Shown here: positions 33,356 through 39,699 of the stretch, in pieces
Layout: the number at the start of each line of letters is the position of its first letter
Position numbering within the stretch: position 1 is the stretch's first letter
DNA from: Methylotenera sp.
GTDB lineage: Bacteria; Pseudomonadota; Gammaproteobacteria; Burkholderiales; Methylophilaceae
Assembly (NCBI GenBank): GCA_030655015.1
Contig: JAURWJ010000115.1
Location: 1 to 64,000 of the forward strand
Direction: 5' to 3'
DNA length: 64,000 nucleotides
The notes under the pieces: model-generated
What the model saw: the letters and a program-made list of their open reading frames with translations, nothing else
Told to the model about the DNA's origin: nothing
The model's database searches: none
Made by a program: the position numbers and the translations under genes

Positions 33356-33700
33356 ATGAGTTCAGTATTAATCGTAGGTGGTGACCAAATTGATGGCATC
33401 AAACAAGTGTTATTGAATTATGGTATTGAGCATATCAATCATTGGTCAGGTCGAAAAGTGGGTGACAGCAATAAAGTCATCCCGCAGGATACCAAGATTA
33501 TTGTGTTAATCACCAACTGGATTAGTCACTCCATTACGCATAAAGTAAAACGCAATGCGCTGAAACGCGGCATAAAAGTAATTTATACGCCTAATGGTCC
33601 AAGTGCATTACAAAGCCGATTACAAAAAATCGGGCCTGATTTAGCACTGGAGGCTGATTGTAAATACCCCCATAGCACACACTCACATTTACTGCATTAA
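33356..33700 (+). CDS. DUF2325 domain protein
   Basis: A 114-residue protein matching the DUF2325 pattern: VLIVGGDQIDGIKQVLLNYGIEHINHWSGRK, then IIVLITNWISHSITHKVKRNALKRGIKVIYT. It looks like a small Rossmann-like fold without signal or membrane segment, and a single cysteine lies near the C-terminus. The function of the family is unknown. It precedes a 1-Cys peroxiredoxin gene by 17 nt on the same strand and converges on the encapsulin operon, so a link to redox or sulfur stress is possible but unproven. Confidence 0.75.
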   Translation: MSSVLIVGGDQIDGIKQVLLNYGIEHINHWSGRKVGDSNKVIPQDTKIIVLITNWISHSITHKVKRNALKRGIKVIYTPNGPSALQSRLQKIGPDLALEADCKYPHSTHSHLLH

Positions 33701-34362: not shown

Positions 34363-34463
34363 GCACAAAAACTACAGATAAATCACAGATGTAGTTGATA
34401 CATATTTAAGAAAAGTGGGGGCCGCTTAACACTTTAAACAAAGCGGTGCTCTTCTCCTTAGTT

Positions 34464-34510
34464 GTCCGGCACCTGTATTTAAATTGCGTACAGGTCACCG
34501 GACTTTTTTT
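34464..34510 (+). terminator. Rho-independent terminator after the peroxiredoxin gene
   Basis: gtccgg (34464-34469) pairs with ccggac (34498-34503), and acctgta (34471-34477) pairs with tacaggt (34489-34495), giving a long stem followed by seven Ts (34504-34510). Polarity fits the plus-strand DUF2325-peroxiredoxin unit. It sits in the gap facing the end of the encapsulin cargo gene. Confidence 0.85.
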
Positions 34511-34522
34511 ACTTATCACTAA

Positions 34523-36406
34523 CTAAAGCCCACCTGGCGTTTTATGTGAAGTTAAACGCAGCAAAGCATTTACCATTACATCTACTTCAGCAGGAGTGTT
34601 ATAAAAAGCAAGTGATGGTCTCACTGTAGTTTCTAAACCAAAACGACGCAAAATCGGTTGCGCGCAATGATGTCCCGAACGCACCGCAATACCCTCTTGG
34701 TTTAATGCCGCGCCCACCTCTTCACTCTTATAACCATCCAGCGTGAAAGATAGCACACTCGCTTTTTCTTTAGCAGTGCCCACCAAATGCAAACCTGGTA
34801 CTTTTTGCATGGCAGTTGTTGCATACAATAACAACTCATGCTCATAACGTGCAATATTATCAATGCCTACGCGCTCTACATACTCTAAAGCTGCACCCAA
34901 ACCTACTGCATCGGCAATATTACCCGTACCGGCCTCAAACTTAGATGGCGCTTCATGATAGACGGTTTTATCAAACGTCACATCTTGAATCATATTACCG
35001 CCACCTTGCCATGTTGGCATATCAGCCAGCAACTCAGGCTTACCATATAGTGCGCCAATACCGGTTGGGCCAAATACTTTGTGTCCTGAGAACACAAAAA
35101 AGTCTGCATCTAAAGCCTGTACATCTGAGCGCATGTGTGACACGGATTGCGCACCATCCAGTAGCACTTTAGCACCTGCACGATGCGCCATCTGTATCAT
35201 CTCTGTTGCAGGCGTCACTGTGCCCAACGCATTAGAAACCTGCGTAAATGAAACTAATTTCACCCGTGAAGTAAGTAGCTTTTGATATTCGGCCAGCAAC
35301 ACTTGACCACTATCATCCACAGGCGCAACTTTTAACTTGGCACCTGTTTCTTGGCATAGCTGCTGCCAAGGCACAATATTAGCGTGATGCTCGAGGTGTG
35401 AAATTAGAATTTCATCTCCTTCACCTATGTGCTTTTTGCCCCATGATTTAGCTACCAGATTAATCGCTTCTGTTGTTCCGCGAACAAACACAATGTTATC
35501 TACCGAAGGCGCATTGATAAAACGGCGCACCGTTTCACGAGCACCTTCATAGGCATCGGTTGCACGAGCCGCTAACTCATGTGCTGCACGGTGAATGTTT
35601 GAATTTTCATGCTGGTAAAAGTAGGCAATCCTATCAATTACCGCTTGTGGCTTTTGCGTAGTGGCTGCGTTATCAAACCAAATCAGCGGACGCCCATTCA
35701 CCAACTCGCGTAAAATTGGAAAGTCTTTGCGTACTAAATTAGCATCAAACGGCGGATACGCCGCTGTTGGCAATTGTTCAGATTGGTTAAATGGCGAGTC
35801 CTGTAAAAAATAATATGGGCTGCTACTAAAATTGCTTGTAATAGGGCTACCTGAACCATTATTGCTAGAACCACCAGTTTGCCTACCTGATGAGCTACCA
35901 AGCAAATTTTTCAGCTCGTTTTCATAAGGATTATCAAAACTGCCAAGCAATTGTTCAAGTGCGATATCATTTGTAGCAAATGGACTTGACGCATATTGCA
36001 ATTGCAAAACCTCTACATTTGCAATATCAGGTTTAGTTGATGCAATGCTGGGACTTGCTGACAAAATAGAAGGCGTAGGCGTTTGCACCGCACTTTGCTG
36101 CGTACTTAGCGGTGCACTGGCACTGGGCAAAACAGAATCCGTAGCAATGTGTGATAACGAAGCATTAGAAGGGAAATCCGGTTGCCTTCCTAATGGCGAA
36201 TCCGCAGGAAACCCTTCTGCATAGATTTCATTAACCATACGGCTTAACTCAACCACATCTAAATACCCCGTTTCGCTGGCTTGCCTACCTGATCCTAATG
36301 CCGCCGCCATGCGTGGATGCTCACCTGGCAGTGATACCAAAATAGCTTCTGGTTCAAATGACGATAAATCAGCCAAACTAGATGAAAATGTATTATTTGT
36401 ACTCAT
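34523..36406 (-). CDS. Family 2A encapsulin cargo cysteine desulfurase
   Basis: A 627-residue protein. Residues 1 to about 220 are low in complexity, rich in Ser, Pro, Asn, Gly and Gln, and contain short ordered-looking motifs (LPGEHPRMAAALGSGRQ, VNEIYAEGF, SSPYYFLQDSPF). The rest is a complete SufS-type desulfurase: LIWFDNAATTQKP (241-253), PLP lysine K443 in VFSGHKVFGPTG, and persulfide cysteine C581 in RSGHHCAQP. In family 2A encapsulins such a leader directs loading into the shell, and the enzyme stores or mobilises sulfur. The ATG lies inside the end of the shell gene (14-nt overlap). It differs from SUF SufS by the 200-residue leader. Confidence 0.93.
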   Translation of the reverse strand: MSTNNTFSSSLADLSSFEPEAILVSLPGEHPRMAAALGSGRQASETGYLDVVELSRMVNEIYAEGFPADSPLGRQPDFPSNASLSHIATDSVLPSASAPLSTQQSAVQTPTPSILSASPSIASTKPDIANVEVLQLQYASSPFATNDIALEQLLGSFDNPYENELKNLLGSSSGRQTGGSSNNGSGSPITSNFSSSPYYFLQDSPFNQSEQLPTAAYPPFDANLVRKDFPILRELVNGRPLIWFDNAATTQKPQAVIDRIAYFYQHENSNIHRAAHELAARATDAYEGARETVRRFINAPSVDNIVFVRGTTEAINLVAKSWGKKHIGEGDEILISHLEHHANIVPWQQLCQETGAKLKVAPVDDSGQVLLAEYQKLLTSRVKLVSFTQVSNALGTVTPATEMIQMAHRAGAKVLLDGAQSVSHMRSDVQALDADFFVFSGHKVFGPTGIGALYGKPELLADMPTWQGGGNMIQDVTFDKTVYHEAPSKFEAGTGNIADAVGLGAALEYVERVGIDNIARYEHELLLYATTAMQKVPGLHLVGTAKEKASVLSFTLDGYKSEEVGAALNQEGIAVRSGHHCAQPILRRFGLETTVRPSLAFYNTPAEVDVMVNALLRLTSHKTPGGL

Positions 36407-37310
36407 AGTAGTTGCCTACATCAACGTTTTCAAGCACGGCGATTGCGTCATCAGTTAACACCGCTAGTGAGCAATAGAGTGAAACCAAGTATGATGCAAT
36501 TGCCTTATGGTTAATGCCCATGAAACGTACTGACAAGCCCATGCTTTGTTGGCCGGGCAAGTTTGGCTGATACAAACCAACCACACCTTGACGGCTTTCA
36601 CCTGTACGTAACAATAGAATATTCGTTTTACCTTTGGTAACTCTTAATTTATCACAAGGGATAATCGGCACGCCACGCCATGTAATGAATTGTGAGCCAA
36701 ATAAGGCAACTGTTGGCGGCGGCACGCCACGACGTGTACACTCGCGACCAAATGCTGCAATTGCTTGTGGATGCGCTAAGAAAAATGCAGGTTCTTTCCA
36801 TACTTTTGAAAGCAACTCATCAAAATCATCAGGGGTTGGAGAACCACTGCGTGATTTCACTTTTTGTGCCGCCGCTACATTATGCAATAAACCATATTCT
36901 TTGTTGTTAATAAGCTCGCTTTCTTGGCGTTCTTTTACCGTTTCAATAGAAAGGCGTAATTGCTCTTTAATTTGGTTATGTGGGCTACTGTAAAGATCAG
37001 ACACACGCGTATGCACATCCACCACCGTGTTTACCGCGTTCAAGACATATTCACGCCCCCACTCTTCGTAGTCCACAAAGGTTGCAGGTAAGTCACGCTC
37101 ATCCTTAGCAGAACAATCTACTTCAATGGCATTTGGGTCTTTAGCTTTATTCAGGCGATAAATACCTGCTTCAACAGGCACCCAATGCATTAAATGCACT
37201 AACCAACGTGGCGTAATCGTGCTCAGCATTGGTGTCGATTTGGTTGCATTTGAAAGCGTACGTGCGGCAACGTCACCTAATGCGGTTTGATGATGGTTAA
37301 TATCTGTCAT
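36393..37310 (-). CDS. Family 2A encapsulin nanocompartment shell protein (SrpI-like)
   Basis: A 305-residue HK97-fold shell protein. It matches family 2A (SrpI-like) encapsulins through TPRWLVHLMHWVPVEAGIYRLNKAK, FVDYEEWGREYVLNAVNTVVDVHTRVSDLYS, PHNQIKEQLRLSIE, TPDDFDELLSKVWKEPAFFLAHP and GVVGLYQPNLPGQ...MGINHKAIASYLVSLYCS. The family self-assembles into icosahedral shells. No cyclic-nucleotide-binding insertion, as found in family 2B, is present. TAGGAGATTTAC before the ATG is a strong ribosome-binding site. It lies between an acetyltransferase gene (43-nt gap) and the cargo gene (14-nt overlap). Confidence 0.93.
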   Translation of the reverse strand: MTDINHHQTALGDVAARTLSNATKSTPMLSTITPRWLVHLMHWVPVEAGIYRLNKAKDPNAIEVDCSAKDERDLPATFVDYEEWGREYVLNAVNTVVDVHTRVSDLYSSPHNQIKEQLRLSIETVKERQESELINNKEYGLLHNVAAAQKVKSRSGSPTPDDFDELLSKVWKEPAFFLAHPQAIAAFGRECTRRGVPPPTVALFGSQFITWRGVPIIPCDKLRVTKGKTNILLLRTGESRQGVVGLYQPNLPGQQSMGLSVRFMGINHKAIASYLVSLYCSLAVLTDDAIAVLENVDVGNYYEYK

Positions 37311-37353: not shown

Positions 37354-38385
37354 TTAATGATGCTGTTGAGTTTCGTGTGTCGGTTTGCCTTCGCTGTTAG
37401 CATTTGTGTGATGCTGACTTGCATCTAATGGCGTAGCCAAGTTTTGCGCTTGGGTAATATTACTGCCAGCAGGCACGCTACGCGTGAGCCACACATTACC
37501 GCCAATTGCAGATCCGCGCCCAATGGTAATGCGCCCTAGTACGGTGGCACCTGCATAAATCACTACGTCATCCTCAACAATAGGGTGGCGCGCATTACCT
37601 TTTATCAAATAGCCATCTTCATCAACAGGAAATCGTTTAGCGCCCAGCGTCACGGCTTGATAAATGCGCACATGTTTGCCAATAATGGTCGTTTCACCAA
37701 TGACGACACCTGTACCGTGGTCGATAAAAAAACTTTCTCCTATATCTGCCCCAGGGTGAATATCAATGCCAGTAACCGAATGTGCAATTTCCGTCATCAT
37801 GCGTGCAATGAGCGGCAAGTTTAAGCCATGCAGTACATGTGCTAACCGATAATGAATCGTCGCCAATATGCCTGGATAACACACCAATACCTCATCAATA
37901 CTTCTGGCGGCAGGGTCGCCCTCAAACGCCGCTTTAATGTCGGTATCCAGCAACAAACGCACGCCAGGCAATTGTTTTGCAAACGCGCGCACAATGTCGA
38001 TAGGTGATTTTGTAACGTCACTCAAAGATTTATTCTGGTTAAACTGATTTTTTGTATCAACGACAAAATTTAATTCCAGTTTTACTTGTGCAATGAGTTC
38101 ACGCAACGCTACATCCAGTGTATGCCCCACAAAGTAATCAATGCCGTCATCTTTTAAGTCTGGCAAGCCTAAGCGGTTTGGAAATAAAGCCGCAGCCAAG
38201 CCTTCAACCACATCTTGCAATGCTTTTCGAGATGGCAACTTAGGTGGCTTATCGCGCCGTTTTCTAGTTTCTAGTGAAGAAAGCCGCAAGTTACGTAACT
38301 GCATCACAATTTGGCTAATGCCTAAATCGCTGGTAATTGCACTGGTAACGACACTTTCATCATCGTTATTTTGGTTAATTTTCAT
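37354..38385 (-). CDS. Long serine O-acetyltransferase of the encapsulin operon
   Basis: A 343-residue acetyltransferase, first gene of the operon. The N-terminal helical part (to about residue 195) precedes the left-handed beta-helix: GIDIHPGADIGESFFIDHGTGVVIGETTIIGKHVRIYQAVTLGAKRFP, then HPIVEDDVVIYAGATVLGRITIGRGSAIGGNVWLT. It makes O-acetylserine from serine and acetyl-CoA, the cysteine precursor. It is longer than CysE and resembles the EpsC-like enzymes that accompany family 2A encapsulins. Pairing with a desulfurase suggests cysteine supply and sulfur storage. The leader holds a terminator-like hairpin. Confidence 0.92.
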   Translation of the reverse strand: MKINQNNDDESVVTSAITSDLGISQIVMQLRNLRLSSLETRKRRDKPPKLPSRKALQDVVEGLAAALFPNRLGLPDLKDDGIDYFVGHTLDVALRELIAQVKLELNFVVDTKNQFNQNKSLSDVTKSPIDIVRAFAKQLPGVRLLLDTDIKAAFEGDPAARSIDEVLVCYPGILATIHYRLAHVLHGLNLPLIARMMTEIAHSVTGIDIHPGADIGESFFIDHGTGVVIGETTIIGKHVRIYQAVTLGAKRFPVDEDGYLIKGNARHPIVEDDVVIYAGATVLGRITIGRGSAIGGNVWLTRSVPAGSNITQAQNLATPLDASQHHTNANSEGKPTHETQQHH

Positions 38386-38423: not shown

Positions 38424-38475
38424 AAAAACGCAAAAAGCCAGCGGTCTCTCGACACGCTGGCTTCCGGTTGTCCGG
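38424..38475 (-). terminator. Terminator-like hairpin in the leader of the encapsulin operon
   Basis: On the minus strand AAGCCAGCG and CGCTGGCTT (38455-38463 and 38435-38443) form a 9-bp stem with an 11-nt loop, followed by TTTTTGCGTTTTT. A smaller CCGG-ACAA-CCGG unit adjoins it at 38464-38475. It lies about 40 nt before the acetyltransferase ATG, and the gene beyond it is divergent, so no upstream transcript needs terminating. This suggests transcription attenuation of the operon. Confidence 0.6.
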
Positions 38476-38700
38476 TCAGCACACGCTAACTAATTAAAAT
38501 TAAATATTTGACTGGTAAATTTTAAATTACTAACCAACTAATATCTGCAATATACACCACTCTAGTAGGTAAAAAAAGAGCTGCCATAAAATTACTTTTT
38601 ACAATATTTAATTATAAATATATTACTTAACATTCTTTTAAATTATTTATAAAGACGTTTAAGATAACTAACTTCTAAATCTTTATCCTAGAGTAAACCC

Positions 38701-39699
38701 ATGTTTAAAAAATCCATTATTTCAAGTTTGTTTGTAATTTCAAACTTACTGCTAGTACCGAGTGCAAATGCAGATACAACATTGCTAAATGTTTCATATG
38801 ATGTCACCCGCGAGTTTTACAAAGACTTTAACCCCTCTTTTATTAAGCACTGGAAGCTAAAAACAGGCGAAACTATCACCATCAATCAGTCACATGGCGG
38901 CTCTAGTAAACAGGCTAGGTCGGTAGCTGATGGACTTGAAGCTGACATCATCACCATGAATCAAGCACCAGACATTGATATTTTGTATGAGCGCTCAAAG
39001 CTTATTCCTAAAGATTGGCAAAACCGTTTACCTAATGCCAGCGTGCCAACCACTTCAACCACAGTATTTTTGGTACGCAAAGGAAATCCCAAACAAATTA
39101 AAGACTGGGATGATTTAATTAAACTAGGCATTGCTGTGGTGCTTCCCAACCCAAAAACCTCTGGTAACGGCAAATATAGCTACTTGGCTGCCTGGGGTTA
39201 TGTGATTAAAAAAGGGGGCGATGATGCCAAGGCAAAAGAATTTGTCACCAAACTCTTTAAAAACGTACCTGTTTTGGATGCTGGTGGGCGTGGCGCAACC
39301 ACCACCTTCGCTCAGCGTGACATTGGTGATGTATTACTAACCTTTGAAAATGAAGTCAATTTAATCAAAAAAGAACTCGGCGATAAATTTGACGTTGTAT
39401 ATCCTTCAGCAAGTATTCTTGCCGAAAACCCTATTGCGGTGGTTGATAAATATGTAAATAAACATAAAAACCGTACCGTAGCAGAAGCCTATGCACAATA
39501 TCACTACTCTGAGACTGCACAGGAGATCGCAGCGCAGCATTACATCAGACCGAGTTTGGCCTCTGTGGCAGAAAAATACAAAAGCAGATTTAAAGTGCTA
39601 GATTTGTTCAGCGTCGATGAAGTATTCGGTAGCTGGACTAAAGCTCAAAAAACACATTTTGCCGATGGCGGTACGTTTGATCAGATTTATCAAAAGTAG
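38701..39699 (+). CDS. sbp: Periplasmic sulfate-binding protein
   Basis: A 332-residue solute-binding protein with a signal peptide (about residues 1-24, cut after SANA). The mature part matches Sbp/CysP: LLNVSYDVTREFYKDFNPSFIKHW, NQSHGGSSKQARSVADGLEADIITMN, VLPNPKTSGNGKYSYLAAWGYV and LDAGGRGATTTFAQRDIGDVLLTFENE. It captures sulfate, or possibly thiosulfate, for an ABC importer. No CysT, CysW or CysA genes are next to it. It is divergent from the encapsulin/serine acetyltransferase operon, which fits a shared role in sulfur supply. Confidence 0.94.
   Translation: MFKKSIISSLFVISNLLLVPSANADTTLLNVSYDVTREFYKDFNPSFIKHWKLKTGETITINQSHGGSSKQARSVADGLEADIITMNQAPDIDILYERSKLIPKDWQNRLPNASVPTTSTTVFLVRKGNPKQIKDWDDLIKLGIAVVLPNPKTSGNGKYSYLAAWGYVIKKGGDDAKAKEFVTKLFKNVPVLDAGGRGATTTFAQRDIGDVLLTFENEVNLIKKELGDKFDVVYPSASILAENPIAVVDKYVNKHKNRTVAEAYAQYHYSETAQEIAAQHYIRPSLASVAEKYKSRFKVLDLFSVDEVFGSWTKAQKTHFADGGTFDQIYQK

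Follow-up and report, generated by a model that had tools for sequence, protein, structure and literature searches.

Why a terminator-like hairpin should stand in front of an operon whose upstream neighbor is transcribed in the other direction is the question raised by the encapsulin locus of Methylotenera sp. analyzed here within a 64,000-nucleotide stretch of DNA (the window). The operon lies on the minus strand and begins with an epsC/cysE-type serine O-acetyltransferase gene (37354 to 38385; orthologues match TIGR01172 and NF041874), followed by genes for a Type 2A, SrpI-like encapsulin shell protein (36393 to 37310; PF19307, E = 7e-108) and a cysteine desulfurase with a long N-terminal extension, the probable encapsulin cargo (34523 to 36406; PF00266, E = 2e-144). 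The next gene upstream is divergent, as the first-pass annotation had stated, and encodes a sulfate/solute-binding protein (38701 to 39699, plus strand; PF13531) that is also the divergent neighbor in most relatives. Bacterial sulfur control is mostly ascribed to proteins (CysB, CymR) or to the SAM riboswitch. Sequence comparison identifies the hairpin as one copy of a short putative RNA switch that precedes sulfur-acquisition genes in distantly related bacteria and probably allows them to be read only at sulfur shortage.

The hairpin is exactly where it had been placed, a GC-rich 9-bp stem and U tract before the first gene. On the minus strand, AAGCCAGCG/CGCTGGCTT pairs 38455 to 38463 with 38435 to 38443 around GUC-GAGA-GAC, the terminator tail TTTTTGCGTTTTT has its 3′ end at 38424, and the epsC/cysE start codon (38385) lies 38 nt beyond the end of the U tract (UUUUUGCGUUUUU, 38424 to 38436), which is kept U rich in relatives. 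A general terminator scan missed this hairpin because the tool permits only loops of 3 to 8 nt. The intrinsic terminator (38435 to 38463) is the 3′ half of a leader element spanning 38424 to 38480 (minus strand), a functional unit that reaches 5 nt past the end first given. Abutting the terminator stem is CCGG-ACAA-CCGG (38464 to 38475), the upper stem-loop of a 21-nt hairpin, GCU-GA-CCGG-ACAA-CCGG-A-AGC (38460 to 38480), whose last 3 bases double as the terminator foot (AGCC/GGCU, with AGC in common). The leader folds at −38.8 kcal/mol, versus −24.5 ± 3.1 in shuffles (z = −4.7; 0 of 200 as stable), and the window contains a single copy of its 22-nt core, GCTGACCGGACAACCGGAAGCC, where chance predicts 0 even with 3 mismatches. 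A further hairpin, GUUAGC-GUGU-GCUGAC (38475 to 38490, minus strand), is found in many, not all, relatives; it is lineage specific at the genus level, not conserved outside the family and missing from more distant copies, and from its predicted fold it could sequester the 5′ strand of the 21-nt hairpin.

Leaders of orthologous operons were compared for covarying alternative stems, as the first-pass annotation had proposed. The element is kept in 26 of 29 relatives carrying the encapsulin operon (L059 to L061 are without it), and both folds covary in a wider alignment. In those 26, GCTGACCRGANNNCYGGARGCC stands before the first gene (a few with one altered base) with a terminator immediately 3′, and the region upstream of the core is not conserved. 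With one exception (194 nt), the U tract of every measured leader ends 19 to 82 nt, often about 20 nt, from the start codon; being so near, it leaves little space for a second promoter, that one leader excepted. A −10-like element, AGTGGTGTATAT (38550 to 38561, minus strand), is the probable leader promoter: it occurs in 18 of the 26 element-bearing relatives as well as the window, and its motif, TGGTGTATATT, lies 33 to 93 nt upstream of the element in 19 of 27 leaders, window counted, several relatives being without a recognized promoter element. The terminator is placed between this putative promoter and the first gene, the arrangement of an attenuator. Between the divergent genes and closer to the solute-binding protein gene, a box conserved in relatives (AATAATGTAAAAGAAT; AATAATTTAAAAGAATG in the window, 38631 to 38647, minus strand) is likely a promoter or regulator site of that gene.

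Covariation was assessed in a structure alignment of 135 distinct sequences, fitted to the terminator rather than to the lower stem of the 21-nt hairpin. For the upper stem plus terminator, 11 of 12 pairs covary (score, 0.67 versus 0.22 in shuffles, which leave relatedness in). For the antiterminator (upper stem plus GCU/RGC), 98.5% of cells are paired and the score, 0.33 versus 0.19, is above all shuffles, which again leave relatedness in; no slid version of this pairing came close. Two-sided changes in the upper stem include CG to UA, GC to AU, and GC to UA. The lower stem is largely invariant, with a few double changes (forms seen, GCU/AGC, GCU/GGC, ACU/GGU, GUU/GGC, GCC/GGC, and GCU/GGU; 5 ACU/GGC exceptions). 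On either side of the internal loop, one unpaired adenine (alignment positions A8 and A34) is invariant in 135/135. The loop of the core stem is mostly 4 nt, otherwise 5 to 7 nt. Since RGC is part of both terminator and antiterminator, the folds are mutually exclusive. The suggestion that CCGG-ACAA-CCGG might contribute to an alternative fold is thereby supported, this segment being the antiterminator’s upper stem-loop, which the terminator fold also retains.

Predicted energies in the window are −26.3 kcal/mol for the terminator fold and −22.6 kcal/mol for the antiterminator fold (gap, 3.7 kcal/mol), and across 130 members the predicted median gap is 6.5 kcal/mol in favor of the terminator. 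In predicted folding of growing prefixes, the antiterminator forms first and flips to the terminator once the 3′ arm is out. By this prediction, the unaided leader should terminate, and a binder that adds several kcal/mol would let transcription run on.

Core matches number at least 123 across phyla (genome and viral contigs), with a terminator directly 3′ in 63 of the matches listed. Two covariance models were built, R1 from 37 diverse copies and R2 from 140 matches with an effective number of 140 (no down-weighting); E-values of both are rough. R1 found one copy in the genome of origin, 5 in Moorella, and 13 to 17 in some Geobacter-like genomes (several with copies clustered in one region); among 250 evenly sampled Bacillales, 20 genomes were positive. 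R2 found the element in 126/300 Bacillales genomes and 99/244 genomes of the class of Geobacter (up to 16 copies per genome). The window’s own class served as a negative control and yielded 9/274 genomes, 7 at only 26 to 29 bits and 2 above 30 bits; the element is also present in methanotrophs and almost nowhere else in that class. Matches lie outside long open reading frames in 123 of 140 cases, versus 27% of random positions, and the median distance from terminator to start codon is 50 nt. Paired copies before one gene were seen at L228:2459-2565, L229:3733-3894, and L227:1076-1296, and divergent pairs at L226:3965-4244.

Judged from sequence, the genes downstream are mostly sulfur genes: sbp, cysE/epsC, cysK, cysH, cysJ, sat, ssu, tauD, metN/Q, metK, metY, msrA, cymR, and Type 2A encapsulin. 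The core-match set also precedes O-acetylhomoserine sulfhydrylase, SsuA-like, TauE-like, NifH-like, and NifB-like genes (named from sequence, using family models), and the R1 Bacillales copies precede sbp, ssuB, ssuA, cysH, cymR-like, metN, metQ, tauE, and tauD. Pfam assignments were made for best-scoring matches rather than a random draw, the downstream gene being picked by a simple start-codon rule. The top Bacillales set (n = 33) held 8 SBP_bac_11 (sulfate-binding type), 4 ABC ATPases, 3 phosphoadenosine phosphosulfate (PAPS) reductases, 3 TauE, 3 Rrf2, and 1 each of MsrA, TauD, and arylsulfotransferase; the top Geobacter-class set (n = 27) held 4 SAM synthetases, 2 cysteine-synthase-type PALP, 2 NifH-like, 1 Cys/Met PLP enzyme, and 1 sulfite/nitrite reductase. 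Porins and HlyD-type proteins (both in the Geobacter-class set) and a CitMHS-type transporter, with no obvious sulfur role, also lie downstream. Gene islands of Geobacter relatives carry up to 12 copies before NifH-, NifB-, and NifX-like, corrinoid, metK, and rhodanese genes (L212 to L216 [G101:C155:103-181 kb], L217 to L221, and L224 to L227) and are probably organosulfur or methionine-salvage islands. On phage and prophage contigs, core and terminator stand before late or regulatory genes (L062, L064, L264, L268 to L270, L275, L278, L280, L283, L285, L291, and L292), with a terminase small subunit gene next in L064 and HNH-like and regulator-like genes elsewhere.

We therefore read the leader, with a probability of about 0.8, as a transcription attenuator that is off by default, serves a sulfur regulon, and is relieved when sulfur is limiting. 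Both folds, their overlap, their conservation, and the sulfur gene context come from comparison; the promoter, termination, and direction of control (on at low sulfur) are inferred. Transcription would start from the promoter near 38550, and the 21-nt hairpin would fold first. With sulfur plentiful, the 3′ arm would emerge, the terminator would capture AGC, and transcription would stop at about 38424. With sulfur limiting, a binder would stabilize the small hairpin (the two invariant adenines sit in its asymmetric internal loop), keep the terminator foot open, and so let epsC, encapsulin, and desulfurase be transcribed. The direction is suggested by gene content and by Synechococcus elongatus, where sulfur starvation upregulates the SrpI encapsulin together with its desulfurase (PMC8049743). 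Premature termination as attenuation, which the first-pass annotation had put forward, thus gains comparative support from overlapping, covarying, conserved folds, and the sulfur-related signal that it had offered as a possibility gains the same from the genes downstream; such a signal does not account for the phage and prophage copies. If true, this would be a single RNA switch for sulfur acquisition common to several bacterial phyla, a handle on the timing of Type 2A encapsulin production, and a marker for organosulfur-use gene islands (nitrogenase-like and corrinoid genes in Geobacter relatives), and it raises a testable question: which binder engages the 21-nt hairpin once sulfur runs out.

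For that binder, an RNA-binding antiterminator protein that stabilizes the hairpin in the manner of LicT/SacY at RAT sites is close to an even bet. A RAT site is a short hairpin that contains an asymmetric internal loop and overlaps, at its 3′ end, the foot of the terminator; its default state is off. The element shares each of these properties, its predicted energetics being default off, and tandem copies (L228 and L229) fit as well. Unlike RAT sites (BglG/LicT), it has another sequence and stands before sulfur rather than sugar genes. Against a protein, no gene common to the surroundings of the copies was found. A BglG-type (CAT_RBD) protein was rejected as the common partner (0 in the genome of origin; 20 of 26 element-bearing genomes lack one), and so was an ANTAR protein, which is present in the genome of origin yet absent from 11 of 26 carriers. 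ANTAR target RNAs have two hexaloop stems with A1 and G4, a layout that the element, with one core stem and a loop mostly of 4 nt, does not share.

The other form of the attenuator model is a small riboswitch in which the hairpin itself binds a sulfur-shortage metabolite, e.g., O-acetylserine, with no protein, a possibility we hold tentatively. A patchy distribution among distant phyla, whole genomes with a single copy (such as the genome of origin), the invariance of the unpaired A residues, and the failure to find, among ANTAR and CAT_RBD proteins, an RNA-binding partner common to carriers speak for it; an aptamer as small as about 21 nt in which few unpaired bases are conserved, the need for a ligand that rises in starvation to switch genes on, and the existence of phage copies speak against it. 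Its broadest version, equally speculative, is a widespread minimal riboswitch class of about 21 nt sensing a sulfur-shortage metabolite and spread horizontally through Firmicutes, Geobacter relatives, methanotrophs, and methylotrophs and into phages. A binder that is neither protein nor small molecule is improbable.

Outside the attenuator model, two readings are unlikely: an unregulated terminator whose one effect is to lower expression, and a small RNA made between the divergent genes and ending at the hairpin. A strong terminator with its own promoter could yield a stable RNA of about 100 to 120 nt, but the antiterminator strand and its overlap are conserved across phyla, the stretch upstream of the core is not, and a location before start codons is general. 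Leader-peptide attenuation was rejected (by eye, no conserved reading frame was seen in the relatives’ leaders), as was a T-box-like pairing of UGGA with tRNA-Cys (Bacillales copies have CCGAAGGC instead of UGGN-like bases). A hairpin arisen by chance, a relic terminator, and a dispersed repeat can all be dismissed. The gttgtccgg string pointed out at the peroxiredoxin terminator is indeed present near it (34461 to 34469) but is a chance string and no second copy of the element, for which the covariance model has one match in the window and one in its genome, and single copy number, conservation, covariation, and a chance expectation of 0 refute all three.

No Rfam 15 family matches the element at curated or lax thresholds, including T-box and the four-way-junction SAM-I/S-box aptamer (RF00162). 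Like the element, the S-box exerts terminator/antiterminator control of sulfur genes; the element is far smaller and has no Rfam riboswitch match. SAM-I riboswitches lie about 0.6 kb (L196:809-927) and about 0.2 kb (L199:1800-1918) from element copies in Bacillaceae, and both sulfur leader types thus coexist. The HMP-PP (thiS) riboswitch is described in the accessible text as a terminator-embedded aptamer (PMC6478431); it resembles the element in its compact leader and its sensor fused to the terminator and, by that description only, is set apart by its other genes and by the lack of an Rfam match at the element.

Our search of the open literature found no paper describing this class, and two sources probably touch on it. 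In its accessible text, Naville and Gautheret (2010) has an unexplained bacilli attenuator (“ABC-leader,” Fig. 4d) before an alkanesulfonate transporter operon (PMC2965389), and van der Ploeg, Barone, and Leisinger (2001), by its title, places regulation of the Bacillus subtilis sulphonate genes at both initiation and termination (doi 10.1046/j.1365-2958.2001.02327.x). As far as these texts go, they agree with the reading proposed for the element in control of ssu genes at termination, an antiterminator, and an unassigned sensor, and differ in not joining these leaders to a cross-phylum regulon. The element precedes ssuB/ssuA in Bacillales (L246, L247, L254, L258, and L259). Judged by description and not by leader sequences, both the ssu leader of B. 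subtilis and the ABC-leader are likely this same element.

DUF2325 as the partner finds no support in gene neighborhoods: it was not found near Geobacter copies, and in L059 it lies beside an encapsulin operon without the element. One DUF2325 gene (33356 to 33700, plus strand) lies near the encapsulin operon of the window and another (L309:1574-1873) directly after an element copy in a Bacillales genome, and the family might belong to the sulfur response.
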